Shown here piece by piece: positions 3,024 through 18,605 of a DNA stretch of 34,235 nucleotides. Source of the DNA: Pseudoflavonifractor phocaeensis. GTDB taxonomy: Bacteria > Bacillota > Clostridia > Oscillospirales > Oscillospiraceae. The DNA lies in NCBI RefSeq assembly GCF_021531375.1, contig NZ_JADYTU010000019.1, forward strand, positions 1 through 34,235, in the 5' to 3' direction. The translations under genes and the position numbers were made by a program. The notes under the pieces are model-generated. The model was not told where the DNA came from and made no database searches. It worked only from the letters and a program-made list of their open reading frames with translations. Every line of letters starts with the position of its first letter. Position 1 is the stretch's first letter.

Positions 3024-3038
3024 TAGGAGGAGAGACAT

Positions 3039-3456: not shown

Positions 3457-3558
3457 GTGGGATGGCTGAGCGTTTGGGCATGTTGCAGCAGGTCCTGTTT
3501 ATCATCATATCAGTGTGGGAGCGGCCCGGGCCCCAGGGGCGATCCGGACTTTTCCGTG

Positions 3559-3587
3559 TCATATTCCACTGCTTATCCCAATAGAAT
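3559..3587 (+). promoter_or_regulatory. Candidate sigma-E promoter of spoIVA
   Basis: TCATATT (3559-3565), a 14-nt spacer and AATAGAAT (3580-3587) match the sigma-E consensus except for the first base of the -10. The start codon is about 48 bp downstream. spoIVA is sigma-E dependent in studied spore formers. Confidence 0.55.
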
Positions 3588-3634
3588 GATAGAGAAACTA
3601 CCGGCTGACAAATGAGGCCGAAGGAGGAATCGCA

Positions 3635-5113
3635 GTGGAAGACCGCAAAATCTATGAGGATATTGCCCTCCGGACCGAGGGCGACATCTACATCGGCGTC
3701 GTGGGGCCGGTCCGCACCGGAAAATCCACCTTTATCAAACGGTTTATGGAGACGCTGGTCATTCCCGGCATCGACAACGTGTACCGCCGGGAGCGGGCCA
3801 GGGACGAGCTGCCCCAGAGCGGCTCCGGCCGGACCATCATGACGGCGGAGCCCAAATTCGTCCCGGAGGACGCGGTGAGCGTGACGGTGGAGGGCGGAGC
3901 CACCTTCCGGGTCCGGCTCATCGACTGCGTGGGCTATATGGTGAACGGGGCGGTGGGCCAGCTGGAGGGGGAGAGCGAGCGGATGGTCACCACCCCCTGG
4001 TTCGACCATGAGATCCCCATGGCGGAGGCGGCGGAGATCGGCACCCGGAAGGTGATCTCGGAGCACTCCACCATCGGCGTGGTCATCACCACCGACGGCA
4101 CCATCACCGACATCCCCCGGGAGGACTATCAGGAGCCGGAGGAGCGGGTGATCTCCGAGTTGAAGGAGCTGGGCAAGCCCTTTGTGGTCCTGCTCAACTC
4201 GGCCTATCCTGACTCGGAGCGTGCCCAGGCTATCCGGGCTGACATCGCCCAGCGGCATGACGTGACCTGTGTGGCGGTGAACTGTCTGGAGCTGGGCCGG
4301 GAGCAGATCCACGAGATCCTGAAAGACGTCCTCTACGAGTTCCCCATGAAGGAGCTGGACCTGTATCTGCCCCCCTGGGTGGACGCCCTGCCCCAGGAGC
4401 ACCCCATCAAGTCGGTGCTGTACGCCGCCATCCGGGAGGGGACCGGCCAACTGCGGCGCATCCGGGACGTGGAGCGGGCGGTGTCCTCCTTCCGGGACTG
4501 CGAGGTGGTCAGCCAGGCCCAGATCACCTCCATCGACCTGGGCATCGGCCTGTCGGTGGCCTCCCTGGAGCTGCCGCGGTCCCTGTTCTACGAGACCCTG
4601 TCCCAGCAGTCCGGGTTCCAGATCGGGGACGACGGGGACCTGATGGCCCTGCTCACCCAGCTGGCGGGGGTCAAGGCGGCCTATGACAAGGTGGCCGACG
4701 CCCTGAAGGAGGTGGAGGAGACGGGCTATGGCATCGTGGTGCCCTCCATCGACTCCCTGGTACTGGAGGAGCCGGAGATCATGAAGCAGGGGGGGCGGTA
4801 CGGAGTCCGCCTGAAGGCCAGCGCGCCGTCCATCCATATGATCCGCGCGGATATCGAGACCGAGGTGTCTCCCATCGTGGGGGGCGAGAAGCAGAGCGAG
4901 GACATGATTCACTACCTGCTCCAGGAGTACGAGGGGGACTCCAGCAAGATCTGGGAGGCCAATATCTTCGGCAAATCCCTCCACGAGCTGGTCAACGAGG
5001 ACCTGAACGTAAAGCTGAAGCGGATGCCGGAGGACGCCCGTGCCAAGCTGCGTGAGACCCTCCAGCGCATCATCAACGAGGGCTCCGGCGGGCTGATCTG
5101 CATCATCCTGTAG
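3635..5113 (+). CDS. spoIVA: Stage IV sporulation protein A, coat basement ATPase
   Basis: The protein has 492 residues, the usual family length. It starts at GTG 3635 with AAGGAGG at 3621-3627. The Walker A motif GPVRTGKST is at residues 24-32 with Lys30, the same number as the catalytic lysine of B. subtilis SpoIVA. The sensor-threonine region GRTIMTAEPKFVP follows at 66-78, and the Walker B aspartate is Asp97 in RLIDCVGY. The C-terminus ends in the hydrophobic GGLICIIL typical of the family, which contacts SpoVM in B. subtilis. SpoIVA hydrolyses ATP to polymerise into a shell around the outer forespore membrane, tethered by SpoVM and, in clostridia, by SipL; both partners are encoded just upstream. 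It is a single-gene transcript with its own promoter and terminator. Confidence 0.97.
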   Translation: MEDRKIYEDIALRTEGDIYIGVVGPVRTGKSTFIKRFMETLVIPGIDNVYRRERARDELPQSGSGRTIMTAEPKFVPEDAVSVTVEGGATFRVRLIDCVGYMVNGAVGQLEGESERMVTTPWFDHEIPMAEAAEIGTRKVISEHSTIGVVITTDGTITDIPREDYQEPEERVISELKELGKPFVVLLNSAYPDSERAQAIRADIAQRHDVTCVAVNCLELGREQIHEILKDVLYEFPMKELDLYLPPWVDALPQEHPIKSVLYAAIREGTGQLRRIRDVERAVSSFRDCEVVSQAQITSIDLGIGLSVASLELPRSLFYETLSQQSGFQIGDDGDLMALLTQLAGVKAAYDKVADALKEVEETGYGIVVPSIDSLVLEEPEIMKQGGRYGVRLKASAPSIHMIRADIETEVSPIVGGEKQSEDMIHYLLQEYEGDSSKIWEANIFGKSLHELVNEDLNVKLKRMPEDARAKLRETLQRIINEGSGGLICIIL

Positions 5114-5416: not shown

Positions 5417-6547
5417 ATGGCTGTGATTGCCGCTGCTTTATTGGCAGTGATCCTGGTGTTTCTGGCATTGGAGCAGCGCCGGGCCTTACAGGACCGGGCA
5501 AAGCTGGAGCATGTGGTCCACGTCAACGGCATCCGCGGAAAATCCACGGTGACCCGTTTGATCGACGCCGGCCTGCGGGCGGGGGGACAAAAGGTCTTTT
5601 GCAAGACCACCGGAACCGTTCCCATGACCATTGGAACGGACGGCGTGGCCCGGCCTCTGGTCCGCCGGGGCCGCGCCAACATCAAAGAGCAGTTGAAGAT
5701 TCTCCGCCAGGCGGCCCGGGAGGGCGCGCAGGTCCTGGTCCTGGAGTGTATGGCGGTGGACCCGGCCCTGCAAAAGGTAGCGCAGCACCGTATGGTGCGG
5801 GCGGATGTGGGTGTCATCACCAACGTGCGGCTGGACCATACCGAGGAAATGGGCGGGACTCTGGAGGAGATCTGCGATTCGCTGTCCAATACCATCCCCA
5901 AGGACGGATGGATGTTCACCGCGGATCAGGCTTTTTATCCCCGGCTCAGCCGCAGCGCCGCGGGGATCGGGTGCAGGACCCAGCTGGCTCTTCCCAGTGG
6001 AACGGAGCCGGACTTTGACTTTCCGGAAAATCTGGCGCTGGCGCTGGCGGTCTGCTGTCATCTGGGCGTGGAGGAAGCTGTGGCGTTGGAGGGGATGCTC
6101 CATTATCAGCGGGACCCCTACGCGCTGTCCCTGCACCGGCTGCCTGGAGGTGGTGTGTTTGTCAACGGCATGTCCATCAACGATCCCCAGTCCACCCAAA
6201 TGGTCTTTCAGCGTCTGGCGGGGAAGTATGGCTGGGCGGAGAAAGAGTTGATCCTGCTGATCAACAACCGCCCGGACCGGGGTTACCGGACCGAGCACAT
6301 GGCGATGGTGGCCGGTGGGCTGCAGCCCGCTCAGGTGTGGCTGCTGGGCGCGTCCCAGCTGACCATGGCCCGGATCATCCGGCGCAGGGCGCCCCGGACA
6401 GAGATCCGGCGCTTTTCCCGGGCGTCGGAGCTGCCCTTGGACCGGGTTTTCCCGGAAAGCGTGGTCTTCGCGGTGGGCAATGTGGCCGGTCCCGGACATG
6501 AGGTGATGAAGCGCGTGCGAGAGGAGGCGGAGGAATATGTACCATGA
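5417..6547 (+). CDS. pgsB: Poly-gamma-glutamate synthase subunit PgsB/CapB (Mur-ligase-like amide ligase)
   Basis: The protein has 376 residues. ATG 5417 follows GAGGGAG; a longer upstream reading frame has no RBS. An N-terminal membrane helix (about residues 2-18) precedes the ATP-binding loop NGIRGKSTVTR (37-47), the Mur-ligase-like P-loop of PgsB/CapB. DVGVITNVRLDHTEEMG follows as the second ligase signature. PgsB uses ATP to activate the gamma-carboxyl of glutamate (or a growing chain) and joins amino acids through gamma-amide bonds at the inner membrane face, together with PgsC. It overlaps pgsC by 11 nt. No pgsA/capA homolog, normally the third core subunit, follows. The family is certain; whether the product is long poly-gamma-glutamate or a short gamma-glutamyl compound is open. 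Confidence 0.93.
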   Translation: MAVIAAALLAVILVFLALEQRRALQDRAKLEHVVHVNGIRGKSTVTRLIDAGLRAGGQKVFCKTTGTVPMTIGTDGVARPLVRRGRANIKEQLKILRQAAREGAQVLVLECMAVDPALQKVAQHRMVRADVGVITNVRLDHTEEMGGTLEEICDSLSNTIPKDGWMFTADQAFYPRLSRSAAGIGCRTQLALPSGTEPDFDFPENLALALAVCCHLGVEEAVALEGMLHYQRDPYALSLHRLPGGGVFVNGMSINDPQSTQMVFQRLAGKYGWAEKELILLINNRPDRGYRTEHMAMVAGGLQPAQVWLLGASQLTMARIIRRRAPRTEIRRFSRASELPLDRVFPESVVFAVGNVAGPGHEVMKRVREEAEEYVP

Positions 6548-6971
6548 AGTTGTCCTGGTGGGAGTGGCGCTCAGCCTGCTCTTTTCCGAACTGACCGGCC
6601 TGTCTCCGGCCGGACTGGTGGTCCCGGGATATATCGCGCTCTCCCTTCAGACGCCCGGCCGGGTGCTCTATACCCTTCTGATCGCGCTGCTGGCCTGGGG
6701 GGTGGCCCGGCTGCTGGCTCGCTGGATGATCTTGTACGGGCGGCGGCGGTTCGCGGTTTTGATCCTGCTGTCCTTTCTGATCAACGCGCTGATCGTCGGC
6801 TCGGGGATCCTGCCCTATGACCCGGGCATGATCGGCGTATTGGTGCCCGGCATCATTGCCAACGAGGTGGAAAAGCAGGGGGTTCTGAAGTCCATGCTGT
6901 CCCTGGCGGTGGTGGTGGGGGTCCTGGTCCTGCTGATGATGTGGCGGGGAATGAAGGTGTTCCCCACATGA
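6537..6971 (+). CDS. pgsC: Poly-gamma-glutamate synthase membrane subunit PgsC/CapC
   Basis: The protein has 144 residues and is almost entirely membrane helices (about four or five). It starts at ATG 6537, inside the end of pgsB, with GGAGGCGGAGG as RBS. The segment LTGLSPAGLVVPGYIAL is characteristic of PgsC/CapC, and the length is near the roughly 149 residues of the B. subtilis protein. PgsC forms the membrane part of the PgsB-PgsC synthase and probably the path for the product. Its stop codon overlaps the next start as ATGA (6968-6971), so translation of the three genes is coupled. Confidence 0.92.
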   Translation: MYHEVVLVGVALSLLFSELTGLSPAGLVVPGYIALSLQTPGRVLYTLLIALLAWGVARLLARWMILYGRRRFAVLILLSFLINALIVGSGILPYDPGMIGVLVPGIIANEVEKQGVLKSMLSLAVVVGVLVLLMMWRGMKVFPT

Positions 6972-8086
6972 GAAAGAAGGAAAAGACAGTTTTGGCGCTG
7001 CTGGCGGCCGCTCTGGTGCTGCTGGCGGCGTCGGCGGTGCTGGCAGATCGGAGCGCCGTGCTTGGGCGGAACGAATATTACCAGACGCAGGTGGAAGCTG
7101 TCCAGCGCCTGGAGGCCTGTTTTGAGGCGGTGCGGGGCTACAAGGAGGAACTGGGCATTCCCATGAGTGGGGAGGACCTGCATCAGACGGGGATGATCGG
7201 CCTGCCCTATACCGGCATCACCACCACCCAGGGCGCTTTGGAGGCCAAGCGCACCACGGCCTGGCCGGACATGGCGGCGCTGTGCGTGCGGATGCTGTAT
7301 GAGGCGGGGGTGCGCCCGGGCAACACGGTGGGCGCCGGCTTTTCCGGCTCCTTTCCGGGGATGGATCTGGCGGTGGTGACGGCCTGTGAAAGCATGGACG
7401 TGCGGCTGGTCTGCATCTCGTCCGTGGGCGCATCTACTTACGGCGCGAATCATCCGGAGCTTACCTTTCCGGAGATGATGTACCGCCTGGAGCGGGACGG
7501 GCTGATCGCCACCAAAAGCGCGGCGGTCACGTTGGGCGGCTATCATGACGTGGGGGAGGACATGGACCCGGAGTTGGTCGCTCCCATAAAGCGGCGTCTG
7601 GAGGAAGCGGGTCTGGATCTGGTGGAACAGCCCGATTTTGCCGCGAATATCGCGTGGAGAGAAGAACTCTACCAGCGGGAAGGCCCCATTGACTGCTTTG
7701 TCGCCGTGGGCGGCAACGTGACCTCCCTGGGTCTGGGAGAGAGCGGAGTATCCCTGGGGCAAGGGGTGCTGCATTCCGCCGGAGCGGTCCGGCTGGACGA
7801 TTCCAGCGGTCTGGTCCAGCGGTATTTGAGCCGCGGCCTGCCGGTGGTGAATCTGTTGAATATCAAAAAGCTTATGGCAGATTACAGTATGCCCTTTGAT
7901 CCGCTGATCTGGCCTCCCATCGGCCAGTCCGCGGCGTACAGCTCCATCCGGTACGAGAAGGGATGGATCGGGGCGGGCCTGGGCGGAGCTGCCGTGCTTC
8001 TCGCGCTGTGCCTGTGGGTCCGGCGCCGTCCGGAACCGGGCCGTCCCCCATTGGGGGAAGCGGAAAAGACAGAAATGGGAGGATAA
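6968..8086 (+). CDS. pgsW: Poly-gamma-glutamate system protein, PgsW-like
   Basis: The protein has 372 residues. ATG 6968 overlaps the pgsC stop; an in-frame GTG at 6941 is less likely. An N-terminal helix (LALLAAALVLLAASAVLA, about residues 8-25) and a C-terminal helix (WIGAGLGGAAVLLALCLWV) leave a large domain, probably outside the cell. That domain contains VGAGFSGSFPGMDLAVVTAC and CISSVGASTYGANHPELTF. I recognise it as the poly-gamma-glutamate system protein found beside pgsBC in loci outside Bacillus (symbol pgsW from memory). Its biochemical role is not known to me. Its place directly after pgsC, where pgsA would stand, suggests that it takes part in synthesis, export or anchoring of the gamma-linked product. 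Confidence 0.75.
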   Translation: MRKKEKTVLALLAAALVLLAASAVLADRSAVLGRNEYYQTQVEAVQRLEACFEAVRGYKEELGIPMSGEDLHQTGMIGLPYTGITTTQGALEAKRTTAWPDMAALCVRMLYEAGVRPGNTVGAGFSGSFPGMDLAVVTACESMDVRLVCISSVGASTYGANHPELTFPEMMYRLERDGLIATKSAAVTLGGYHDVGEDMDPELVAPIKRRLEEAGLDLVEQPDFAANIAWREELYQREGPIDCFVAVGGNVTSLGLGESGVSLGQGVLHSAGAVRLDDSSGLVQRYLSRGLPVVNLLNIKKLMADYSMPFDPLIWPPIGQSAAYSSIRYEKGWIGAGLGGAAVLLALCLWVRRRPEPGRPPLGEAEKTEMGG

Positions 8087-8092
8087 GGCCCT

Positions 8093-8737
8093 ATGTCAGA
8101 CAGAGAATTAAAGATTCTGATGATAGACGACGACGAACAGATCCTGTTCGCCCTTCGCGCTGTGTTTCAATTTCAGGGATGGGAGTCTGTGTCCGCCAAA
8201 GATGTGCCGTCTGGGCTGGAGCTGTTTCGTTCGGAGCACCCGGATCTGGTGCTGATCGACTACCATTTGCCCCGCGTCAACGGAGTCAAGGGGGTGCGGA
8301 TGATCCGGGAACTGGATGGAGAGGTGCCCATCATCGTCTTTACCATTGACGAAAGCCAGGAAGTGGCCGACCAGTTTATCGAAGCCGGCGCCAGCGACTT
8401 TGCGCTCAAGCCCATCAAGGTCCCGGACATCATCAGCCGTATCCGGCTCCACATTCGCCTAATCGACAGCAACCGCCGTCTCAAGGACAAAAAGGAGGAG
8501 CGGGCTCCTGTGGCCACTGCGAAGGGGATCGGCCTGACCACTCTGGAGCTGATCGAGGGAGCGCTGCAGGGAAGCGACGAATTTCTTACGGTGGAGGCCA
8601 TTTCCCAGCGCACCGGCCTGGCCTATCAGACGACTTACCGCTACCTGCAGCACATGGTCTCTCAGGACCGGGTGGAGGTCAGCCAGAGCTATGGAAAAGT
8701 GGGCCGTCCCAAGCAGAAATACCGCCTGAAGAGCTAA
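8093..8737 (+). CDS. Response regulator of the CitB/DctR type
   Basis: The protein has 214 residues and starts at ATG 8093 after GGGAGGATAAGG, only 6 bp after the pgsW-like gene. The receiver domain (1-120) has Asp12/Asp13, phospho-acceptor Asp56 in LVLIDYHLP, Thr84 and Lys106. The output domain (about 140-214) is a helix-turn-helix, LTVEAISQRTGLAYQTTYRY, ending in GRPKQKYRL. That closing motif is typical of regulators such as CitB and DcuR/DctR that answer to extracellular carboxylates. The cognate kinase is probably the histidine kinase two genes downstream. Likely targets are the pgs promoter and the promoter before ggt1, both of which carry inverted repeats. Confidence 0.87.
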   Translation: MSDRELKILMIDDDEQILFALRAVFQFQGWESVSAKDVPSGLELFRSEHPDLVLIDYHLPRVNGVKGVRMIRELDGEVPIIVFTIDESQEVADQFIEAGASDFALKPIKVPDIISRIRLHIRLIDSNRRLKDKKEERAPVATAKGIGLTTLELIEGALQGSDEFLTVEAISQRTGLAYQTTYRYLQHMVSQDRVEVSQSYGKVGRPKQKYRLKS

Positions 8738-8758
8738 GGGCACAGGAGGAAGTTTGTT

Positions 8759-9565
8759 ATGGTACGCCGCTCTATCGCTCTGTTTTTAAGCATGCTGCTC
8801 CTCTGCGGAACGGCGGCCGGCTGCGCCAAACGCGGCCTGGAGGCGGAGCCGGACCAGTGGAAGCTGGAGGACTTTGCAGGCTGTCTGGAAGCGCGGTTTG
8901 ACACCGCCGCGGAAGAGTATCCGCTCCTGGAGGGTACGGAGGAGGAAAACACCGTCTGTGTCCTGCGGGGCGCGGAGGAGGGGCCCACGGTCTACCTGGT
9001 GGCCGGGGTCCACGGGGATGAGGTGGCCGGCTGGCGGGCGGGCAACCTGCTGAAGGAGGCCACGCTGAAGGCGGGGACCCTTTATATCGTCAGCCCCGCC
9101 AATCTCTACGGAGCCCGGGAGGACCAACGGAAGACCAAATCGGACCGGGATCTGAACCGGAGCTTTCCGGGCGATCCGGAGGGGTGGGACGCTCAGCGCA
9201 TTGCCTATGCCATTTTTACTGACATTCAGGACAAGCAGCCCGATCTGGTTCTGGATCTGCATGAGGCGCGCTCCAAGCAGGGCGACCGGGACGCACTGGG
9301 GAATTCGTTGATCTGCCAATCGCTGGATGGGATCGGTGACCTGATCCTTGAGGCGCTGCTGGCTTCGGAGGCGGGGGAGCTGTGCGGGAGCGCGCTGACC
9401 TTGTACGGCTCGCCGCCGGCCGGGAGCATCAACCAGACGGTGACGGAGATGCTGGGCATCCCTACGGTCACCGTGGAGACCTATCGTGAGGAGCCGCTGG
9501 CGCGGCGGGTGCAAAATCAACTGGAATTTGTTCAGTATGTTTTGGAGTATTATGAAATGCGCTGA
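8759..9565 (+). CDS. Aspartoacylase/succinylglutamate desuccinylase-like zinc lipoprotein
   Basis: The protein has 268 residues and starts at ATG 8759 after AGGAGGA. A lipoprotein signal (hydrophobic 5-20, cysteine at position 22 in TAAGC) anchors it outside the membrane. The zinc site of the AstE/AspA branch of M14 peptidases is complete: HGDE (85-88) and His168 in LVLDLHEA. Arg/Asn substrate residues are in DLNRSFPG (131-138), and a catalytic Glu is probably 240 in VTVETY. Family members cleave N-acyl amino acids or C-terminal residues. Family members in the cytosol handle succinylglutamate or N-acetylaspartate, so an extracellular lipoprotein is notable. Between a response regulator and a kinase of a poly-gamma-glutamate locus, trimming of gamma-glutamyl chains or N-acyl-glutamates is a reasonable guess. 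Confidence 0.85.
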   Translation: MVRRSIALFLSMLLLCGTAAGCAKRGLEAEPDQWKLEDFAGCLEARFDTAAEEYPLLEGTEEENTVCVLRGAEEGPTVYLVAGVHGDEVAGWRAGNLLKEATLKAGTLYIVSPANLYGAREDQRKTKSDRDLNRSFPGDPEGWDAQRIAYAIFTDIQDKQPDLVLDLHEARSKQGDRDALGNSLICQSLDGIGDLILEALLASEAGELCGSALTLYGSPPAGSINQTVTEMLGIPTVTVETYREEPLARRVQNQLEFVQYVLEYYEMR

Positions 9566-9588
9566 ATGGTATGGGGAGGCAGTGAGCC

Positions 9589-11010
9589 TTGAAAAAGAAT
9601 TGGAAAAAACTGCCGCTCCGGCTTGCCTCCGTCAATACGAAGGAGCTGTGCATCGGCGTGATCCTGATCGTCATCAGCTTTTTTATGCCGCTGTTCTTTA
9701 ACGTGCATAATTTCGCGGTGCTGCGTTCCATCCGCCGGGCTTTGCGTATGGCGGAAAAGACAGACCTGCTGGCCGCTGCCATTCAGCTGGTGGCCCTGAA
9801 CTCCATCCGCGGCATCCCTCATTATGTGGGCTCGTTCTTTATTGGAGAATCCGTGGAGTTTCGATGGAAGGAGCGCAAGGTGTGGCTGCTCAATGTGCCT
9901 TTGATCATGGTCATCGTGCTGCTGACCTACCGGGGGATCGGCGCCATCCACCAGATCCACTATGATTTCGGAATCCCCGCCATGCTGGTGTCTTTTTTCG
10001 TGCTGCTGTTTCGGAAGATGGATTACCGCTATGTTTCTCTGGTGAAAAAAGCCAGCCTCATCATTTTGTTTCTGACTGCCCTTCAGTTTTTGGATGTGAT
10101 GCCCGCCATGGACCGCTTTCCGGTGGGACGGGGAGAGATTTCCATGGAGATCAAGCTGGCTGCCGTCATTTTGGAAGGGGAGACTGTGCTGAATGTGGCG
10201 GCGCTGACAGGCATGCTGTTGTTTCTTGCTTTCACCCTGGTGATTTTTTTCCAGCTGCGGGATGAAAACAATTTGAGGCAGCTGAGCAGCCTGAAGGAGC
10301 AAAACCAAGCCATCCTGGTCCAGTCCCAGCTGAATGAGATGAAAAACCGCACCTATCAGGAGATGCAGTATCTGGTCCATGACTTAAAGTCCCCGTTGAC
10401 GGCGGTGCAGACCCTGGTGGGCGTGCTGAAAATGAAGTGCGAATCGGAGTCGCGCGCTGATGATCTGGAATATCTGGATTACATCGAGAACACCGTGGAA
10501 CGGATGAGCGAGATGATCTCCGAGATCCTGTATGAGGACCAGCAGTCGCCCATCACCACCCAGGAGCTGGTGGGAGTGGCCCTGGCCCAAAGCTCAGTCA
10601 ACGATTATGCGGCCTACCTCCATGTGGACAACCAGATCCCGGAGGCTGTGATCTGTGCCAACCGCTTTTTGTTCCCCCGGGTCCTGATCAATCTGATCCA
10701 GAATTCGGCCCAGGCCATGCCGCAGGACCGGACGCCGGAGATCTGGCTGCGGGTGGAGCGGATGGAACATGGCGATGGGATCCTGTTTACCGTGGAGGAC
10801 AACGGCACGGGGATCGGCAAGGAACAGATGAAGACCATTTGGGACCGGGGCAGTTCGGGCCGCCAGTCCAGCGGACTGGGTCTTGCGTTTGTACAAAATG
10901 TGATCGACCGCATGAACGGGAAGATCCGTATGGAGAGTATTCCGGGGGAGGGGACCCGAATATCGGTGGAGCTTCCGGAAGAACTTGCGGAAGCAGAGGA
11001 AATGTGTTAA
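9589..11010 (+). CDS. Membrane sensor histidine kinase
   Basis: The protein has 473 residues. The start is TTG 9589, set by GGGGAGG at 9574-9580; no in-frame ATG lies near. Several membrane helices (about 20-38, 60-85, 100-117, 127-142, 155-170 and 200-222) form an integral sensor with little extracytoplasmic sequence. A short coiled linker (230-255) leads to the H-box YLVHDLKSPLTAV with phospho-acceptor His264. The N-box LINLIQNSAQAM (Asn372), G1 VEDNGTGIG (402-410) and G2 GLGLAF (429-434) follow, so all ATP-binding parts are intact. It is the probable partner of the response regulator, from which it is separated by the zinc lipoprotein gene. That arrangement suggests the lipoprotein may feed the sensor with a ligand. 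It is the last gene of the first block. Confidence 0.92.
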   Translation: MKKNWKKLPLRLASVNTKELCIGVILIVISFFMPLFFNVHNFAVLRSIRRALRMAEKTDLLAAAIQLVALNSIRGIPHYVGSFFIGESVEFRWKERKVWLLNVPLIMVIVLLTYRGIGAIHQIHYDFGIPAMLVSFFVLLFRKMDYRYVSLVKKASLIILFLTALQFLDVMPAMDRFPVGRGEISMEIKLAAVILEGETVLNVAALTGMLLFLAFTLVIFFQLRDENNLRQLSSLKEQNQAILVQSQLNEMKNRTYQEMQYLVHDLKSPLTAVQTLVGVLKMKCESESRADDLEYLDYIENTVERMSEMISEILYEDQQSPITTQELVGVALAQSSVNDYAAYLHVDNQIPEAVICANRFLFPRVLINLIQNSAQAMPQDRTPEIWLRVERMEHGDGILFTVEDNGTGIGKEQMKTIWDRGSSGRQSSGLGLAFVQNVIDRMNGKIRMESIPGEGTRISVELPEELAEAEEMC

Positions 11011-11028
11011 AATTAAATAAATTGAGCC

Positions 11029-11088
11029 AGAGAGGGTCAAAAACCGACGTTTGTAAAAGAAAAACGGGCGGGCACCCTCTCTTTTTTT
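11029..11088 (+). terminator. Terminator after the histidine kinase gene
   Basis: AGAGAGGGT (11029-11037) pairs with ACCCTCTCT (11074-11082) around a loop of about 36 nt and is followed by an uninterrupted T run. It separates the pgs-regulator block from the ggt-transport block. Confidence 0.8.
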
Positions 11089-11105
11089 ACTTCCCTTGGG
11101 CATGT

Positions 11106-11128
11106 TGCACAGAAAAAACGTCTGTGCA
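11106..11128. promoter_or_regulatory. Inverted repeat upstream of the ggt1 promoter, possible operator
   Basis: TGCACAGA and TCTGTGCA form a perfect 8-bp inverted repeat with a 7-nt A-rich centre, about 85 bp before the -35 box. The place and symmetry fit an activator site. The response regulator of the first block is the obvious candidate, but no binding evidence exists. Confidence 0.35.
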
Positions 11129-11211
11129 GGCGAGAAAATTGGAGATTGCTAAAGCGTTTATCCATCAGACAGAGAAAATCATCGCAGTGAAGAAATAAAT
11201 AAGAGAAAAAA

Positions 11212-11241
11212 TTGACGGACCGGCCATGTAAAATTTATAAT
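11212..11241 (+). promoter_or_regulatory. Sigma-A promoter of the ggt1-transport block
   Basis: TTGACG (11212-11217), an 18-nt spacer and TATAAT (11236-11241) lie 112 bp before the ggt1 start. They sit in an A/T-rich stretch. The near-consensus boxes agree with the high-expression codon choice of the genes it drives. Confidence 0.8.
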
Positions 11242-11296
11242 CTAAGTAAGTAGATGGTACATATTGGGCAATTTTATTCTTTTTTCAGGGCAGAAC

Positions 11297-11316
11297 TTGG
11301 CGGACCTGTCCGCCAA
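11297..11316 (+). other. Leader hairpin in the ggt1 5' untranslated region
   Basis: TTGGCGGA-cctg-TCCGCCAA is a perfect 8-bp stem in the leader, 25 nt before the RBS, with no T run after it. It could stabilise the mRNA or be a control element. Confidence 0.5.
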
Positions 11317-11352
11317 CTGCAAATATAAAGAGATGAAATAGGAGGTAAAAGA

Positions 11353-13158
11353 ATGAAGAAGTACTTAGCTCTGGCTCTGGCTCTGGCGATGACCCTTTCC
11401 CTGGTGTCTTGCGGATCCAAGACCACCCCGGGTACCAGCAGCTCCTCCGCCGGCAGTTCCGCCGCGGTCAGCGAGCCTGTTGCGCCCCCTGAGGACGACG
11501 TCTGGTCCTCTACCGACGAGAACGGCAACCTGAAGCTGACCGAGCGTGACGATACCGGCGCGAACGGCATGGTTACCACCGCCAACGTGTACGCTACCAT
11601 GGCCGGCCTGAAGGTCCTGGAGCAGGGCGGCAACGCCATCGACGCGGCTGTTGCCATTTCCTATGCTCTGGGCGTCTGCGAGCCCAACGCTTCCGGTCTG
11701 GGCGGCGGCGGCTTCATGACCATCCACACCGCTGCCGGTGAGGACGTGGTCATCGACTACCGCGAGGTCGCTCCCATGGCCCAGGACGCTTACACCTGGC
11801 TGGATGAGAGCGGTGCCGTGAAGGACAACGGCAACGCTAACCACATCGGCGGTCTGGCTACCGGCGTTCCCGGCACCGTCGCCGGCATGGAGTACGCTCT
11901 GGAGCACTACGGCTCCGGCAAGCTGACCCGCCAGCAGGTCATTCAGCCCGCCATCGACATGGCTACCGAGGGCTACAAGGCCGGCGCCACTCTGGTCGGC
12001 GCCATGAACGACTACTATGACTACATGGTCACCGACTTCACCACTCTGGGCAGCTACTACCTGAACGAGGATTCCATGCCCTACGAGATCGGCGACGTCA
12101 TCACCAACCCTGATCTGGCCGCTACCCTGCAGAAGATCGCCGAGGGCGGCAAGGACGCGTTCTACACCGGCGAAGTTGCTCAGGCCATCATTGACACCGT
12201 TGCTTCCTACGGCGGCGTCATGACCATGGAGGATCTGGCCAGCTACGAGCCCGTCATCCGTGAGCCCGTCACCGGCAACTATCGCGGCTATCAGATCATC
12301 TCCGCTCCTCCCGCTTCCTCCGGCGGCACCCACATCGTCGAGGTCCTGAACGTTCTGGAGAACTATGACCTGACTTCCATGGGCGTCAACAGCGCCGAGA
12401 GCATCCACGTCTGGTCTGAGGCTCTGAAGGCCTGCTTCGCCGACCGCTCTGCTTACATGGCCGACACCGCCTTCGCTGACGTCCCCCTGACCGGCCTGAC
12501 CTCCAAGGACTACGCCAAGACCATCGCCGACCAGATCACCGACCAGTCTCAGTCCTGGGAGAAGGGCGATCCCTTCGCCTATGAGGGCAACTCCACCACC
12601 GCTTACTCTGTGGCTGACGCCGAGGGCAACATCGTTTCCGTCACTCAGACCATCGAGTGCTTCTTCGGCTGCAAGATCGCCATCCCCGGCTACGGCTTCA
12701 TCATGAACGACCAGCTGCACGACTTCTCCACCAATCCTGAGTCTGTCAACTGCCTCGAGGGCGGCAAGAAGCCTCTGTCCTCCATGTCTCCCACCATCGT
12801 TCTGGACGAGAACGGCGAGGCCTTCATGGCTGTCGGCTCTCCCGGCGGCACCCGCATTTGGCCCACCGTGGCTCAGGTCATCTCCAACGTGATCGACCAC
12901 GGCATGGACATCCAGGAAGCCATTGACACCGCCCGTATCTGGGATAACGGCGGCGAGTCCGGTATTGCTTATGAGTCTGAGGGTGTGAACGCTCCCACTG
13001 CCGACGCCATCGGCGCTCTGGAGGCTCAGGGCCACGCTGTTGACGATAAGGGCGCGTGGAACCTGTACTTCGGCGGCGCTCAGGGCATCCTGTTCACCGA
13101 CAACGGCATCCGGGGCGGTGCTGATCCCCGTCGTGACGGCAAGGCCATCGGCTTCTGA
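11353..13158 (+). CDS. ggt: Gamma-glutamyltransferase lipoprotein 1 (variant active site)
   Basis: The protein has 601 residues; ATG 11353 follows GGAGG. A lipoprotein signal with Cys20 (SLVSCGSK) and a Ser-rich linker (to about 45) lead to a full Ntn-hydrolase of the GGT family. QGGNAIDAAVA (91-101), SGLGGGGFMTIHT (114-126) and the substrate Arg in IDYREVAP are present. Self-cleavage is expected before Thr415 in NSTTAYS, the nucleophile. PLSSMSP (474-480) and GSPGGTRI (495-502) complete the pocket. GGT hydrolyses or transfers gamma-glutamyl groups from gamma-linked peptides, here at the outer cell surface. By alignment with E. coli GGT, His393 is Ala417 and Asn411 is Glu435; GGT2 downstream keeps both residues. 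This copy may therefore have a different substrate. Codons are of the highly expressed type (many GCT, CGT, TCT; few CGG). Confidence 0.95.
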   Translation: MKKYLALALALAMTLSLVSCGSKTTPGTSSSSAGSSAAVSEPVAPPEDDVWSSTDENGNLKLTERDDTGANGMVTTANVYATMAGLKVLEQGGNAIDAAVAISYALGVCEPNASGLGGGGFMTIHTAAGEDVVIDYREVAPMAQDAYTWLDESGAVKDNGNANHIGGLATGVPGTVAGMEYALEHYGSGKLTRQQVIQPAIDMATEGYKAGATLVGAMNDYYDYMVTDFTTLGSYYLNEDSMPYEIGDVITNPDLAATLQKIAEGGKDAFYTGEVAQAIIDTVASYGGVMTMEDLASYEPVIREPVTGNYRGYQIISAPPASSGGTHIVEVLNVLENYDLTSMGVNSAESIHVWSEALKACFADRSAYMADTAFADVPLTGLTSKDYAKTIADQITDQSQSWEKGDPFAYEGNSTTAYSVADAEGNIVSVTQTIECFFGCKIAIPGYGFIMNDQLHDFSTNPESVNCLEGGKKPLSSMSPTIVLDENGEAFMAVGSPGGTRIWPTVAQVISNVIDHGMDIQEAIDTARIWDNGGESGIAYESEGVNAPTADAIGALEAQGHAVDDKGAWNLYFGGAQGILFTDNGIRGGADPRRDGKAIGF

Positions 13159-13194
13159 TCCGGAACGGTTCAATTCCCAATTTCATTTGGCTTT

Positions 13195-13226
13195 CCGGAG
13201 ACGGCGCCGTTCGGCGCCGTCTCCGG
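13195..13226 (+). other. Strong intergenic hairpin between ggt1 and the DUF6305-like gene
   Basis: CCGGAGACGGCGCCG pairs perfectly with CGGCGCCGTCTCCGG across a minimal loop. No T run follows, so full termination is unlikely. Such hairpins usually protect the 3' end of the upstream message and let ggt1 be more abundant than the following genes. Confidence 0.65.
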
Positions 13227-13286
13227 TCCCAATAAAACCTTTGCAGCAAGAAAATCACCTGTGTATCAGAAAGGAGAACAAAAACC

Positions 13287-13904
13287 ATGATTAAGAAGAT
13301 TTCTGCTCTGCTGCTGGCCGTCGCTATGGTGGCCTCTCTGGCCGCCTGCGGCGGCGACAAGAAGCCCGCCGCTTCCAACGGCGGTGCCAGCGCTTCCGCC
13401 GCCGGCGAGGTCGCCGGCCTGACCGAGGCGTTTGCTGAGTCCCCCATTCTGGTCACCTCCGGCGGCCAGAGCGCCGATTATCAGATGATCGGCACCGTTA
13501 TGGGCAAGCTGGGCATGGACTATGAGATCAACAATCTGGCTACTTCCGCCGACCTGGGCGACGCCAAGACCCTGATCGTTGTGGTTGGCGGCTCCTCCAA
13601 GGGTCTGGGCGCTGCCGGCATCGACGCTGACGGCGAGCTGGCTCGTCTGGAGGAGCTGATGGCCGGCGCCAAGGATGCCGGCCTGTCCATCATCGCCATG
13701 CACACCGGCGGTGAGGCCCGCCGCGGCGACCTGTCCGACAAGTTCATTACCCCCGTGTTTGAGAAGGCTGATTACGCCATCGTGGTCTCTGCTGGCGACG
13801 AGGACGGCCTGATGTCCGGCATCTGCGCCGGCGCCGGTATCCCCATGGACGTTATTGGCAGCATCAGCGATGTGACCACCGTCCTGCCCGCCGCGTTCAA
13901 GTAA
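13287..13904 (+). CDS. DUF6305-like lipoprotein next to the TRAP-type permease
   Basis: The protein has 205 residues; ATG 13287 follows GAAAGGAG. The lipoprotein signal ends at Cys21 in SLAACGG, followed by an Ala/Ser-rich linker to about residue 40. The mature domain begins ESPILVTSGGQSADYQMIG and continues with alternating strands and helices (TLIVVVGGSSKGLGAAG, GLSIIAMHTGGEARRGD, YAIVVSAGDEDGLMSG), a Rossmann-like alpha/beta layout. I associate this pattern with DUF6305, from memory and with moderate certainty. It sits 64 bp before a TRAP large permease that has no DctP gene, so it is a candidate extracellular receptor or accessory of that transporter. It is smaller than a DctP protein (about 330 aa) and of different sequence type. 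Confidence 0.7.
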   Translation: MIKKISALLLAVAMVASLAACGGDKKPAASNGGASASAAGEVAGLTEAFAESPILVTSGGQSADYQMIGTVMGKLGMDYEINNLATSADLGDAKTLIVVVGGSSKGLGAAGIDADGELARLEELMAGAKDAGLSIIAMHTGGEARRGDLSDKFITPVFEKADYAIVVSAGDEDGLMSGICAGAGIPMDVIGSISDVTTVLPAAFK

Positions 13905-13916
13905 TTTTGTACACAA

Positions 13917-13940
13917 GGACGGCCGGCACGCCGGCCGTCC
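13917..13940 (+). other. Intergenic hairpin between the DUF6305-like gene and the permease
   Basis: GGACGGCCGGC and GCCGGCCGTCC form a perfect 11-bp stem with a 2-nt loop and no T run. It is the second such hairpin in the block and probably tunes relative expression of the lipoprotein and the permease. Confidence 0.6.
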
Positions 13941-13968
13941 CGATCAAAACAACCATGGAGGTATCTTG

Positions 13969-15243
13969 ATGAGTACTGAGCTTCTCACCTTCATCGCAAT
14001 GGTCGCCGTGTTCCTGCTGGGCTGCTTTTTGGCAAAGCTGCCCGTCAGCATTTCCATGGTCCTCTCTGCGATCGCTGGTTCTCTGGTGGGTGGACAGGGT
14101 ATCGCCCTGCGTCACATGGTCGAGGGTATGTTCTCCTATGTTGACACCATTCTGGTCATTGCCACCGCAATGATCTTTATGAAGGTCATCCAGGAGTCCG
14201 GCGCCCTGGACGCCATCTCTTCCGTCATCATCGAGCGGTTCCATAAGATGCCCGCTCTGATGCTGTGCCTGATCATGCTGATCATCATGTTCCCCGGCAT
14301 GATCACCGGTTCTTCCACCGCCTCCGTTCTGTCCGCCGGTTCCATCATGGCTCCTGTGCTGATGATGATGGGCGTTCCCATGCTGGAGACCGCTTCTATC
14401 CTGGCTATGGGCGGTATCCTGGGCATGATCGCTCCTCCCACCAACATCCCCGCCATGATCATCGGCGCCGGTATCGACATCCCTTACAGCGGCTTTGAGC
14501 TGCCTCTGGCCCTGCTGACCTTCCCTCTGGCCGCCCTGTTCGTTCTGATGCTTGGCTACAAGTATGTCAAGAAGATGAACTATGTGGAGGTCCAGGCGAA
14601 GCTGAACACCGATTCCCGTAAAAAGTTTGGCCTGAAGGTCTACATCCCCCTGGTCCTGGCTATCGTGCTGATGGTCCTGACCAAGGTAGTGCCCGCCTTC
14701 TCCATCGGCATGCCTCTGGTATTCCTGATCTCTGCCGCTGTGGGCTGCTTCACCGGCTATAAGATTAACCTGCTGAAGGTTGCCAAGGACTCTGTCAACA
14801 GCGTGCTGCCCGTTATGGGCATCCTGATGGGCGTTGGTATGTTCATCCAGATCATGACCCTGACCGGCGTGCGCGGCCTGATCGTCACCAGCTGCCTGAG
14901 CCTGCCCGAGTGGGGCCGCTACATCGCCATGTCCGTGTCCATGCCCCTGTTCGGCGCCGTGTCTTCCTTCGGCTCCGCCAGCGTGCTGGGCGTGCCCTTC
15001 CTGCTGTCCTTCCTGGCCAAGGAGGAGATCATCGTGGCCGCTGCCCTGTCCCTGATCGCTTCTCTGGGCGATATGATGCCCCCCACCGCTCTGGCCGGTA
15101 TTTTCGCCGCCCAGGTCGTTGGCATGGAGAAGTACACCCCCGTGCTGAAGAAGTGCCTGTTGCCCTGCCTGATCGTTATCATCTGGGCCATCCTCTTCAT
15201 TGTCTTTGCCAATACCCTTGAGCCCTTCATCATTCTCGGTTAA
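13969..15243 (+). CDS. TRAP-type large permease (DctM-like)
   Basis: The protein has 424 residues. ATG 13969 is chosen over the adjacent in-frame TTG at 13966 by GGAGG spacing. It has about 11-12 membrane helices. The two re-entrant hairpin motifs of the ion-transporter superfamily are visible: MITGSSTASVLSAGSIMAP near residues 107-125 with MIAPPTNIPAMIIGAGI after it, and SSFGSASVLGVPFLLSF with MMPPTALAGIF in the second half. This is the DctM/TRAP large subunit layout, normally a Na+-driven importer of organic acids or amino-acid derivatives that needs a DctP receptor and a DctQ small subunit. Neither is encoded here; the DUF6305-like lipoprotein and a 48-residue membrane peptide flank it instead. 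Cleavage products of the two GGTs and two deacylase-like enzymes are the likely cargo. Confidence 0.88.
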   Translation: MSTELLTFIAMVAVFLLGCFLAKLPVSISMVLSAIAGSLVGGQGIALRHMVEGMFSYVDTILVIATAMIFMKVIQESGALDAISSVIIERFHKMPALMLCLIMLIIMFPGMITGSSTASVLSAGSIMAPVLMMMGVPMLETASILAMGGILGMIAPPTNIPAMIIGAGIDIPYSGFELPLALLTFPLAALFVLMLGYKYVKKMNYVEVQAKLNTDSRKKFGLKVYIPLVLAIVLMVLTKVVPAFSIGMPLVFLISAAVGCFTGYKINLLKVAKDSVNSVLPVMGILMGVGMFIQIMTLTGVRGLIVTSCLSLPEWGRYIAMSVSMPLFGAVSSFGSASVLGVPFLLSFLAKEEIIVAAALSLIASLGDMMPPTALAGIFAAQVVGMEKYTPVLKKCLLPCLIVIIWAILFIVFANTLEPFIILG

Positions 15244-15260
15244 TCGGAAGGAGCAAAAAG

Positions 15261-15407
15261 ATGATTACTATTATCTATCGACTGATCGTTGTTTTCGTAA
15301 TCGGCCTGGTGGGTTGGAACCTGTTCACTGAGAAGAAGCTCACCATGCAGCTGAACTGTGCCATGGTCCTGATCCCCCTGGTCCTGCGCGCCCTGATGAT
15401 CAAGTGA
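15261..15407 (+). CDS. 48-residue membrane peptide beside the permease
   Basis: ATG 15261 has a clear GGAAGGAG RBS, and the frame ends with TGA at 15405-15407. It starts 17 bp after the permease stop and ends 11 bp before the next start, so it fills the gap tightly. Two hydrophobic stretches are visible: YRLIVVFVIGLVGWNLF (about 6-22) and CAMVLIPLVLRALMI (about 33-47). They are joined by a charged turn, TEKKLT. I do not recognise a family. It may take the place of the missing DctQ subunit or be a stabilising subunit of the permease; a random ORF is unlikely given the RBS, spacing and codon choice. Confidence 0.75.
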   Translation: MITIIYRLIVVFVIGLVGWNLFTEKKLTMQLNCAMVLIPLVLRALMIK

Positions 15408-15418
15408 GGAGGGTGAAC

Positions 15419-16567
15419 ATGACTAAGAAGAATTATATCTCCGCCGCCATTTGTCTGGCGGTTTCAGTGGCCATCATGATCGTTACCAGCATGAACTTTT
15501 TGGCCGCCAGGGACGTTCCCCTGCCTGAGAAGGGTCCCAGCGTCACCGAGGTCAAGATGCTGTCTGACTGGTTCGACGGTCTGAAAGGCACCAATGGCGA
15601 CACCCCCGTCTATGTCCTGAAGGGCGAGAAGGAGGGAGGCGCCGCGCTGGTGCTGGGCGGTACCCACGCCAATGAGGTCTCCGGCTATATGTCCGCGTTT
15701 ACCTTCATTGAAAACGCCGTGGTGGAGCAGGGGACGGTCTATGTCATTCCCTACACCAACCACAGCGCCATGACCCACAACGACCCCGGCGAGGGCAACC
15801 TGCAGTACTTCACCTTGCAGACCAAGAGCGGTGAGCGTACCTTCCGCTATGGTTCCCGCGCCACCAACCCCGTGGACCAGTGGCCTGACCCCGACGTGTA
15901 TATCCACTACCCCTCCGGTCAGCAGCTGTCCGGTTCCGAGACCCGGAACATCAACCGCGCCTATCCCGGCCGTCCCGACGGCAACCTCACCGAGAAGATG
16001 GCCTACGGCGTGGCCGAGCTGATCCGCGCGGAGAACGTGGGCATTACCTTCGACCTGCATGAGGCTTCCCCCGAGTATCCCGTTATCAACGCCACCGTGG
16101 CCCACCAGAACGCCATGAACATCGCCTCCGAGGGCTGCATCAACCTGCTGCTGGGCGGGATCAACATGGCTCTGGAGCAGTCTCCCACCAACTTCCACGG
16201 CCTGACTCACCGCGAGCTGGGCGACTACACCGACACCATGGCCTTCCTCATGGAGACCGCCAATGCCTCTCAGGGTCGTCTGCGCGGCGCTACCACTGTG
16301 GAGCAGGTACTGGGTGGTAAGGATGAATGCTACCTGATCAGTGAGGGCCTGGGTATGCTGTACGTGCCTTGGGACGAGAACGGCCATCCCATTGAGGAGC
16401 GCTGCGGCCGGCACCTGCAGGGTATCTATGAGTATGTGACCGCTTACAACAACGCCAATCCCGACAGCGCGATTGTTTACAGCGGCGTACCCGGTTACAG
16501 CGAGCTGTTCCTGGAGGCCGACCCCTCCGAGCTGGGCGGCGCCCGTCTGGGCAGCTTCCTGCTGTAA
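15419..16567 (+). CDS. Membrane-anchored aspartoacylase/succinylglutamate desuccinylase-like enzyme
   Basis: The protein has 382 residues; ATG 15419 follows GAGGAGGGTG. One N-terminal helix (about 7-29, ISAAICLAVSVAIMIVTSM) anchors it with the catalytic domain outside. The zinc ligands of the AstE/AspA family are present: His83 and Glu86 in LGGTHANEVSG and His214 in FDLHEASPEYP. NINRAYPGRPDG (177-188) is the substrate-carboxylate motif. It is longer than the lipoprotein paralog at 8759 and shares the same motifs, so the locus has two surface-exposed members of this family, one per transcription block. The expected activity is removal of an acyl or amino-acid group from an N-acyl or gamma-linked substrate before uptake. 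The start lies 11 bp after the 48-residue peptide gene. Confidence 0.87.
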   Translation: MTKKNYISAAICLAVSVAIMIVTSMNFLAARDVPLPEKGPSVTEVKMLSDWFDGLKGTNGDTPVYVLKGEKEGGAALVLGGTHANEVSGYMSAFTFIENAVVEQGTVYVIPYTNHSAMTHNDPGEGNLQYFTLQTKSGERTFRYGSRATNPVDQWPDPDVYIHYPSGQQLSGSETRNINRAYPGRPDGNLTEKMAYGVAELIRAENVGITFDLHEASPEYPVINATVAHQNAMNIASEGCINLLLGGINMALEQSPTNFHGLTHRELGDYTDTMAFLMETANASQGRLRGATTVEQVLGGKDECYLISEGLGMLYVPWDENGHPIEERCGRHLQGIYEYVTAYNNANPDSAIVYSGVPGYSELFLEADPSELGGARLGSFLL

Positions 16568-16592
16568 CGCAATCCTCCCTTGTTACAAACGC

Positions 16593-16623
16593 GGCGGTTT
16601 ATAGATGCCTACTATATGCCGCC
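16593..16623 (+). other. Intergenic hairpin before ggt2
   Basis: GGCGG and ATAG pair with CTAT and CCGCC in a two-part stem within the 98-bp gap between the deacylase-like gene and ggt2. No T run follows. No convincing promoter is seen in the gap, so ggt2 is probably read from the ggt1 promoter. Confidence 0.45.
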
Positions 16624-16665
16624 CGATGGTAAAATGAATACCACAATAAGAAAGGGGAAACAAAA

Positions 16666-18486
16666 ATGAAGAGACTCAAGAAACTGTGCGCGCTCCTGCT
16701 GGCTTCCTCCATGGCTCTTTCCTTGGTCGCCTGCGGCCCCAAGGATACGCCTGCCTCCAGCTCCAGCAGCTCCACTCCCGCTGTCTCCGAGCCCGAAGAG
16801 CCGAAGCTGGTCCCGGCCTACTCCGTAGAGGGCTTTGAGACTGTGGACGCCGACGGCAACCGCATCGTCGAGGGCCGCGACGCCACCGGCAGCCAGGCTA
16901 TGGCTGTTGCCTCCAAGTACGAGGTGTCCCAGGTAGGCGCCGAGATCCTGAAGAAGGGCGGCAACGCCGTCGACGCCGCTGTGGCCATGGGCTTTGCTCT
17001 GGGCGTCTGCGAGCCCTTTACCTCCGGTCTGGGCGGCGGCGGTCTGGCCACCATCCACACCGCCGAGGGCGAGAACTACTTCATCGACTTCCGTGAGGTC
17101 GCTCCCGCGGCCGCCACTCTGGATCTCTATGTGGACGCCAACGGCGAGAGCAACGGCAACACCCGTTCCGGCGGTCTGGCCTCCGGCGTGCCCGGTGAGG
17201 TCGCCGGCCTGCTGTACATGCTGGACAACTACGGAACCATGAGCCGTCAGGAGGTCATGGAGCCCGCCATCCGCATCGCCACCGAGGGCTTCACCGTGTC
17301 TCAGTACTGCGCCAACGCCATCGCTGACGCCTATGAGACCGCCCTGCAGTTCCCTGAGATGCAGAAGGTCTATTGGGACGAGAACGGCCTGCCCTACGAG
17401 GCCGGCGACGTCATCACCAACCCCGACCTGGCCAAGACCCTGCAAAAGATCGCTGACGAGGGCGCCGACGCCTTCTACACCGGCGAGGTCGCTCAGGCTG
17501 TCGTTGACAGTCTGGCTGAGTATGACGGCGTGATGACTCTGGAGGATCTGGCCAACTACGAGGCCCAGGCTATCACTCCCGTCACCGGCGAGTATCGCGG
17601 CTATCAGATCATCTCCTCTCCGCCTCCCTCCTCCGGTGGTACCCACCTGATCGAGATCCTGAACATTCTGGAGAACTTTGATGTCGGTGCCCTGGAGGTC
17701 AACTCTCCTGAGTACTGCCACCTGTTTGCCGAGACCTTCAAGCTGGCCTTTGCCGACCGTGCCCAGTATATGGCCGACACCGCCTTCACCGACGTGCCTC
17801 TGGGCGGCCTGACCAGCCAGGATTACGCCGACCTGCGTGCCAAGTCCATCAACCTGGACACCGCCATGGAAGTGGCTGCTCCCGACGATCCCAGCCCCTA
17901 TGAGCACACCGATACTACCCACTTCTCCATCGCCGACGCTGACGGCAACTGCGTTGCCATCACCAAGACCATCAACTACTACTTTGGCTCCGGCGTTATG
18001 GTCAAGGGCTGCGGCTTTATGATGAACAACCAGATGGACGACTTCTCCACCGACGCCGAGTCCGTCAACAAGGTCGAGCCCGGCAAGAAGCCTCTGTCCT
18101 CCATGTCTCCCACTGTGGTTCTGAAGGAAGACGGTTCTCCCTTCATGGTCCTGGGTACTCCCGGCGGTTCCCGCATCTTCTCCGGTGTTGCTGAGGTCAT
18201 CTCCCGCGTCATCGACCACAAGATGGATCTGAAGACTGCTGTCTGCGTGCCCAAGATCTGGAACTGCAGCAACAAGAACAACTTCCAGTATGAGAAGGCT
18301 CTGAAGGGCTATGAGGAGTACGCTGTTACCGAGGAAACCGCGGCCGCTCTGACTGAGATGGGCCACGGCGAGATCAAGACCGCCGCTTCCGGCGCCATGC
18401 AGTCCATCATGTTCATGGAGGACGGCACTCTGTACGGCATCGGCGATCCCCGTCAGGACGGCAAGGCTGTGGGTGTGGACAAGTAA
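16666..18486 (+). CDS. ggt: Gamma-glutamyltransferase lipoprotein 2 (canonical active site)
   Basis: The protein has 606 residues; ATG 16666 follows AAAGGGGA. A lipoprotein signal with Cys23 (SLVACGPK) and a Ser-rich linker precede a complete GGT. It has KKGGNAVDAAVA (96-107), SGLGGGGLATIHT (120-132) and IDFREVAP. Nucleophile Thr417 lies in the canonical TTHFS, Asn437 matches E. coli Asn411, and NNQMDDFS, PLSSMSP and GTPGGSRI are kept. It should mature by self-cleavage before Thr417 and act on gamma-glutamyl compounds at the cell surface. It is a paralog of GGT1, and long stretches such as ITNPDLA and DAFYTGEVAQA match, so the pair arose by duplication around the transporter genes. It is the last gene of the block and shares the high-expression codon choice. 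Confidence 0.96.
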   Translation: MKRLKKLCALLLASSMALSLVACGPKDTPASSSSSSTPAVSEPEEPKLVPAYSVEGFETVDADGNRIVEGRDATGSQAMAVASKYEVSQVGAEILKKGGNAVDAAVAMGFALGVCEPFTSGLGGGGLATIHTAEGENYFIDFREVAPAAATLDLYVDANGESNGNTRSGGLASGVPGEVAGLLYMLDNYGTMSRQEVMEPAIRIATEGFTVSQYCANAIADAYETALQFPEMQKVYWDENGLPYEAGDVITNPDLAKTLQKIADEGADAFYTGEVAQAVVDSLAEYDGVMTLEDLANYEAQAITPVTGEYRGYQIISSPPPSSGGTHLIEILNILENFDVGALEVNSPEYCHLFAETFKLAFADRAQYMADTAFTDVPLGGLTSQDYADLRAKSINLDTAMEVAAPDDPSPYEHTDTTHFSIADADGNCVAITKTINYYFGSGVMVKGCGFMMNNQMDDFSTDAESVNKVEPGKKPLSSMSPTVVLKEDGSPFMVLGTPGGSRIFSGVAEVISRVIDHKMDLKTAVCVPKIWNCSNKNNFQYEKALKGYEEYAVTEETAAALTEMGHGEIKTAASGAMQSIMFMEDGTLYGIGDPRQDGKAVGVDK

Positions 18487-18605
18487 TTTGTTCCCATCGC
18501 TCCCGGCTTCCCGCGCGCTGTAACGTAATGTAAGCGCACGGGCCATGCCTGAAAGGACCTGTTGCAGATTGGAACCGGTCCGGTAAAAACGCACCATAAT
18601 AAACG

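Follow-up and report, generated by a model that had tools for sequence, protein, structure and literature searches.

Genes for PgsB and PgsC are commonly read as "poly-gamma-glutamate (PGA) capsule", and the locus analysed here raises the question of what the two proteins do when CapA/PgsA is not matched in the genome and their genes stand next to exported hydrolases and a permease. The locus lies on the plus strand, at positions 5417–18486, of a stretch of 34,235 nucleotides from Pseudoflavonifractor phocaeensis (hereafter, the window; contig 10 of a source genome of 2.28 Mb that is 99.95% complete). It encodes, in this order, PgsB, PgsC, a protein referred to as W, a response regulator (RR), AstE1, a membrane histidine kinase (HK), and, after a gap of 342 bp, the gamma-glutamyltransferase (GGT) GGT1, a DUF6305 lipoprotein, a DctM-like permease, a 48-residue protein (s48), AstE2, and GGT2. 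The end points that a preliminary description of this DNA had given for the locus coincide with an ATG of PgsB and with the GGT2 stop codon; all the genes that it named are there, and s48 is a further one.

Our analysis indicates that the earlier observation is sound and broader than first described. The gene set represents more than chance, since it recurs in different orders in relatives from the 14 family labels that W-positive genomes carry overall. We tentatively propose, at somewhat less than an even chance, that this is a recurrent Bacillota system, in which PgsB, PgsC, and W (PgsBCW) make a surface gamma-glutamyl chain that is used by hydrolase-import modules and does not serve mainly as a capsule. 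As judged from sequence, the proposal starts from the gene set and its co-occurrence, the lack of a CapA match, the catalytic motifs, the signals for export, and s48 as a constant member.

Distribution and Gene Order

The W protein (6968–8086) matches TIGR04332, "poly-gamma-glutamate system protein", with 318.4 bits (cut-off 100), which bears out its earlier designation as PgsW-like. We checked its presence in the family of the source organism (3 of 150 genomes, all three over the cut-off), in the class (3 of 391, two over the cut-off; the source genome is counted in both tallies), and in a sample of 398 genomes of the phylum, where it was retrieved from 26 genomes, in 25 of them over the cut-off. 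In this last sample, DUF6305 was present in 23 of the 25 genomes with W and in 23 of the 373 without it (Fisher p 1.7e-22), that is, 23 genomes had both, two had W alone, 23 had DUF6305 alone, and 350 had neither; since the genomes share ancestry, such p values overstate independence. PgsC exceeded its cut-off in 34 genomes, 24 of them harboring W, and W occurred without PgsC once only, in genome G802, where it starts at the end of a contig (locus L029) whose surroundings were not fetched wider.

AstE2 was shown by 24 of the 25 W genomes of the phylum sample. A profile of AstE2 (E ≤ 1e-20) was positive in 10 out of 199 genomes, all 10 of them W-positive; this set was not confirmed genome by genome as part of the 398. 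In a second test on 17 chosen genomes, it was positive in five, again all with W, and it matched neither the 10 scored W-negative genomes nor G713, whose W lies below the cut-off, nor the W-positive G797. Hence, 15 of the 15 AstE2-positive genomes of the two tests have W. G713 was dropped from the co-occurrence counts, as were two CapC matches below the cut-off (G720 and G902).

The preliminary description had also held that the synthesis and import genes belong together, and the two do not occur apart in most relatives: in 25 of 31 W loci, a DctM gene is found no more than 10 kb from W; L010 (partial, G169) and L063 (G713) are not counted among the 31. Two of the remaining six loci, L059 and L061, sit on short contigs; for L050, L051, L056, and L062, the import block was retrieved from another place in the genome (L152, L155, L150, and L153 with L154). 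The profiles used for these neighborhoods were built from the same loci that they later scored. The order of the window is found in L002–L005, with losses in L004 and L005; in L039, L042, L057, and L060, the import block comes first and HK or HK-RR last; in L040, L041, and L043, the order is PgsBCW, a DUF6305-AstE1 fusion, HK, RR, and then the import block; L046–L048 and L052–L055 show a divergent arrangement. The persistence of the gene set under changing orders points to selection for keeping the genes together, and a chance neighborhood is rejected on the basis of the co-occurrence across genomes. The closest of the four named W loci belongs to a metagenome assembly of Dysosmobacter sp. (81% identity).

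The possibility that the import block is a free-standing module was considered and rejected, since no DctM or AstE2 match was retrieved from the 21 DUF6305 loci of W-negative genomes (fetched for 21 of the 23 such genomes, not for G587 and G622).

PgsB, PgsC, and W

PgsB (5417–6547) is an amide ligase of the PgsB/CapB type (TIGR04012, 308 bits, cut-off 222.7), and PgsC (6537–6971) is a membrane protein matching TIGR04011 (112.5 bits, cut-off 96.45) and PF14102. W directly follows PgsBC in the window; the PgsB and PgsC genes overlap, and so do those of PgsC and W (by 4 bp). In a PgsB tree of 39 rows, eight rows from CapA- or PghP-associated loci were set apart from the other 31, including that of the window, with support 100/100. 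Within this larger clade, 29 rows come from W loci; the other two are L150, whose genome has W on another contig, and L143 (G851), a locus with PgsBC of the W clade where neither W nor CapA was detected.

The absence of PgsA that had been claimed for the locus holds: in a search of the source genome with the CapA family PF09587, nothing exceeded the cut-off, the best E value being 0.6, and no match was obtained at E 0.001 (the same search was positive in 10 of 14 control genomes, including B. subtilis). Thus, a capsule pathway completed by a CapA/PgsA homolog elsewhere is unsupported in this genome. Among 38 chosen genomes (28 W-positive and 10 with PgsC but without W), CapA was present somewhere in 30 at E 0.001 and in 28 over the cut-off, and a CapA gene no farther than 1.5 kb from PgsC was seen in just six, all W-negative (6 of the 10 genomes having PgsC but not W, versus 0 of the 24 having both). 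The best reading of these data is that W takes the position that CapA has in Bacillus.

Two helices of W are predicted to cross the membrane; its structure model (pLDDT 93.6) has an alpha/beta domain between them, the helices being residues 7–32 and 335–357 of a 376-residue model starting at position 6956. The fold comparison of this model gave no clear structural relative, and neither the name TIGR04332 nor DUF6305 was found in a literature search confined to one collection of papers. On the best reading, PgsB, PgsC, and W would form a membrane ligase complex making and exporting a gamma-linked glutamyl chain.

The Import Block

The constant part around DctM consists of DUF6305, DctM, s48, and AstE2, GGT being variable. 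The permease (13969–15243) is a distant member of the DctM family (PF06808, 34.4 bits, cut-off 23.8). Upstream of it, the DUF6305 lipoprotein (13287–13904; PF19823, 164 bits; lipobox LAAC) has a predicted Rossmann-like domain (model pLDDT 88) and is likely the ligand-binding part. The TRAP-type permease with atypical partners of the preliminary description corresponds to this distant DctM match, which lies beside a DUF6305 lipoprotein and s48.

The s48 gene (15261–15407) has a good ribosome-binding site in the window, and its product has two transmembrane (TM)-like segments and no Pfam match at E 0.1. An alignment of 13 members (47–54 residues) revealed a C-terminus conserved around P-x-x-L-R, and wherever a DctM gene and an AstE2 gene are adjacent, an s48 frame separates them (30 of 30 pairs in the first set and 14 of 14 among further copies, 44 of 44 in all; the s48 profile was built from 14 of its own members). 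From these features, we infer that s48 is the small membrane subunit of the DctM-like permease.

AstE2 (15419–16567) is the core of the block, an AstE/AspA-type Zn hydrolase (PF24827, 29.7 bits, cut-off 25), whose HxxE, NxNR, and DxHE residues are invariant in 24 of 24 aligned sequences. It carries one N-terminal TM-like segment, taken as a membrane anchor, and no lipobox.

Genes similar to D-glutamate cyclase lie near import blocks in three other genomes (L172:10887–12068, L177:9033–10121, and L155:6764–7921; PF14336 was confirmed in the first two, and the third was identified by an in-house profile), which agrees with the scenario favored below. Near DUF6305 genes of W-negative genomes, a peptide solute-binding protein was recognized with Pfam in L126 and L133, and a candidate open reading frame (ORF) in L137 was unmatched.

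Exported Hydrolases and the Two-Component Pair

AstE1 (8759–9565) is a second AstE/AspA-type Zn hydrolase (PF24827, 64.1 bits, cut-off 25), exported and probably a lipoprotein, with the motifs DLNRSFPG and DLHE and an HGDE read from the translation. Both AstE enzymes have the Zn ligands H-x-x-E...H together with the NxNR/DLNR motif. Their surface anchoring, asserted previously for the pair, stands for the TM-like anchor of AstE2 and is less firm for AstE1, whose lipobox is weak and did not match the strict pattern. AstE1 also matches PF17033, below the cut-off.

The two surface-anchored GGTs were correctly recognized: GGT1 (11353–13158; TIGR00066, 511.6 bits, cut-off 357.85; lipobox LVSC) and GGT2 (16666–18486; PF01019, 551 bits; lipobox LVAC) are both PF01019 proteins with the catalytic Thr at the start of the small chain, as Thr 415 and Thr 417, respectively, align with this start in solved GGTs. 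A survey of 52 DctM genes revealed a GGT near 26 of them, an exported-type C69 peptidase near 23, both near two, and neither near five; a GGT or C69 gene thus lies within 5 kb of 47 of the 52 (the C69 identity was confirmed with Pfam in five of five tested).

The two-component pair is also as first described: RR (8093–8737) matches PF00072 and is paired with HK in several relatives, and HK (9589–11010) matches PF02518 and PF00512 and has TM-like segments. In three relatives, a single gene placed between W and HK-RR encodes an AstE1-type Zn enzyme fused with DUF6305 (L040:8159–9367, L041:8164–9372, and L043:8167–9393). Such a fusion beside HK-RR suggests that one and the same ligand is bound, cut, and sensed.

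Possible Roles of the System

PgsB-type ligases add glutamate via its gamma-carboxyl. Gamma-glutamyl groups are cleaved off or transferred by GGTs, and N-succinyl-glutamate, which AstE hydrolyzes, resembles gamma-Glu-Glu; dicarboxylates, glutamate among them, are frequent cargo of DctM-type carriers. From this background, we infer what PgsBCW makes, which substrates the hydrolases and the permease handle, the direction of transport, and the ligand sensed. In the scenario that we favor, PgsBCW would make a gamma-linked glutamyl chain and export it; at the outer face, the chain would be the common substrate or gamma-glutamyl donor for the surface modules; AstE2 (and AstE1) would cut an amide bond, and the exported Ntn hydrolase (GGT here, C69 elsewhere) would cut or transfer gamma-glutamyl or dipeptide units; the DUF6305 lipoprotein, the DctM-like permease, and s48 would then carry the product in, with the kinase and regulator adjusting the system to the ligand. 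The idea that a Zn hydrolase acts on a PgsBC product is supported by two loci, lacking W and a nearby CapA, where a gamma-PGA hydrolase gene (PF05908) directly follows PgsC (L144:10344–11204 and L145:10281–11258), an arrangement recorded for genomes G615 and G872.

Several findings weigh against this scenario. AstE1 and AstE2 match PF24827 and not the gamma-PGA hydrolase family (no PF05908 match in either at E 0.01), and a profile search of the PDB with AstE2 retrieved five chains, all of the AstE/AspA family. The fold matches of DUF6305 are to common Rossmann-like folds only, and DUF6305 also occurs with HK-RR without PgsBC, in 20 of 21 W-negative loci (L125–L142 and L157–L159, the exception being L142), so it may be a general ligand-binding sensor part. 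C69 without GGT is found near 21 of the 52 DctM genes, and G797 has W with no AstE2 detected by the profile. Moreover, AstE2 is present in one to nine copies per genome (1, 1, 6, 3, 3, 1, 2, 1, 9, and 5 in the ten positive genomes out of 199), while W stays single; many blocks may therefore act on peptides unrelated to the chain. Since the DctM copies among seven fetched extra loci of G649 are also 31–47% identical, the uptake side looks multi-substrate.

That a single PgsBCW goes with many import blocks is more easily explained by a partner common to the blocks than by one-to-one recycling. There is also a bolder idea, which we regard as unlikely: PgsBCW would not be a capsule synthase but would jointly power the members of a new importer family, its exported gamma-glutamyl chains letting surface transpeptidases and AstE tag or release amino acids for uptake by DUF6305-DctM-s48. 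This would represent an extracellular gamma-glutamyl cycle in bacteria, and s48 would be a minimal transporter subunit of a new kind; if true, it would suggest why some PgsBC systems lacking a true CapA show no PGA capsule.

As one of two options, the preliminary description had suggested that a polymer is made, cleaved outside the cell, and taken up again; in the strict, closed form of this cycle, glutamate would be stored outside as gamma-PGA and trimmed and re-imported on starvation. The window is consistent with it in that a single PgsBCW and a single import block stand side by side there, along with GGT and Zn hydrolases, and Bacillus GGT degrades PGA late in growth. However, the finding of as many as nine AstE2 copies alongside a single W, the divergence of the DctM copies, and the blocks without a nearby GGT render a strict cycle improbable, and it is not favored.

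Equally doubtful is a scavenging role, in which the blocks would break down peptides or N-acyl amino acids from outside and take them up, PgsBCW supplying only an anionic envelope matrix or some needed factor. The multiplication of blocks with diverged DctM copies and the C69 peptidases agree with this, as do a few genes near extra blocks that are members of the 2-oxoacid oxidoreductase, CoA-ligase, and amino-acid permease families. Nevertheless, with W in every AstE2-positive genome of the two tests, the dependence on PgsBCW looks more specific than that on a general matrix.

Finally, an ordinary PGA capsule locus with a dispensable CapA and an importer block there by chance is very improbable, given the two-way co-occurrence over many families and gene orders and the separate clade of W-type PgsB, even though the PGA rule of CapsuleFinder (PMC5542703) treats CapB and CapC as mandatory and CapA as accessory.

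These findings bear on annotation: in this PgsBC lineage, W stands in the place of CapA and is bound to an import system, and, lacking a nearby CapA, many members may be wrongly called capsule producers from PgsBC alone. The lineage also offers a possible reason why some PgsBC organisms show no polymer.

Transcription Units and Flanking Genes

The genes are contiguous on the plus strand, as the earlier claim of one continuous locus had it; a single unit is less well supported, because the 342-bp gap upstream of GGT1 and a sigma-70-like promoter site within it (11212–11241, 11 of 12 positions, a consensus match only) suggest two transcription units, the second possibly starting before GGT1. The promoter scan gave nine promoter-like sites versus 4.2 expected.

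The GC skew is negative across the GGT1-GGT2 block (11000–18500 of the window) and positive on either side, as if the block had arrived separately. On the minus strand, an ORF of 428 amino acids (20775–22061) has no match in Pfam (E 0.001) or NCBIfam (E 0.0001). From the first part of the window (1–5113), SipL-SpoIVA is kept in two genomes of the same genus that are without W (L193 and L194); there, the downstream window genes that were tested were unmatched within about 16.7 kb, and so was the SDR gene (2193–3023).

Comparison with Known Systems

The likeness to the Bacillus pgsBCAE and capBCADE loci lies in PgsB and PgsC. Unlike them, the source genome has no CapA/PgsA match, W is present instead, PgsB belongs to a separate clade, and the import block, the AstE enzymes, and s48 are added. 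GGT-family enzymes are known at cap loci, CapD being an example (PMC3815933). However, both GGTs of the locus score higher against other solved GGTs than against the anchoring CapD type (273.5 and 278.9 bits for the GGT large chain 2dbu_A versus 147.9 and 149.2 bits for the CapD large chain 3g9k_L).

PghP and PghL, gamma-PGA hydrolases of PF05908 with an M14-like Zn fold according to PMC6506827, resemble the AstE enzymes in being Zn amide hydrolases and follow PgsC in the two sampled genomes mentioned above; AstE1 and AstE2 differ in belonging to PF24827.

Francisella capBCA shares PgsBC and a third gene bearing the product name of TIGR04332: the capA entry in a table of PMC5362203 reads "Hypothetical poly-gamma-glutamate system protein", so that the family link is one of name, not of comparison. 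Although Francisella has capBC, PMC3081320 and PMC2629122, as well as a review, state that poly-D-glutamate was not detected or not made there, while PMC6506827, on the contrary, places Francisella among the makers of PGA capsules. The import block, present at our locus, is not mentioned in the excerpts on Francisella.

TRAP transporters (DctPQM) are similar to the import block in having a DctM-like large subunit (PF06808 over the cut-off, though distant), an exported lipoprotein, and a small membrane protein. A DctQ match was not seen among the ten locus proteins scanned, s48 has no Pfam match, and the DctM-adjacent lipoprotein matches DUF6305 only and not a DctP-type binding protein, the rest of the genome not having been searched for either. 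In the place of these two subunits, the locus harbors DUF6305 and the conserved s48, which thus represents a candidate transporter subunit.

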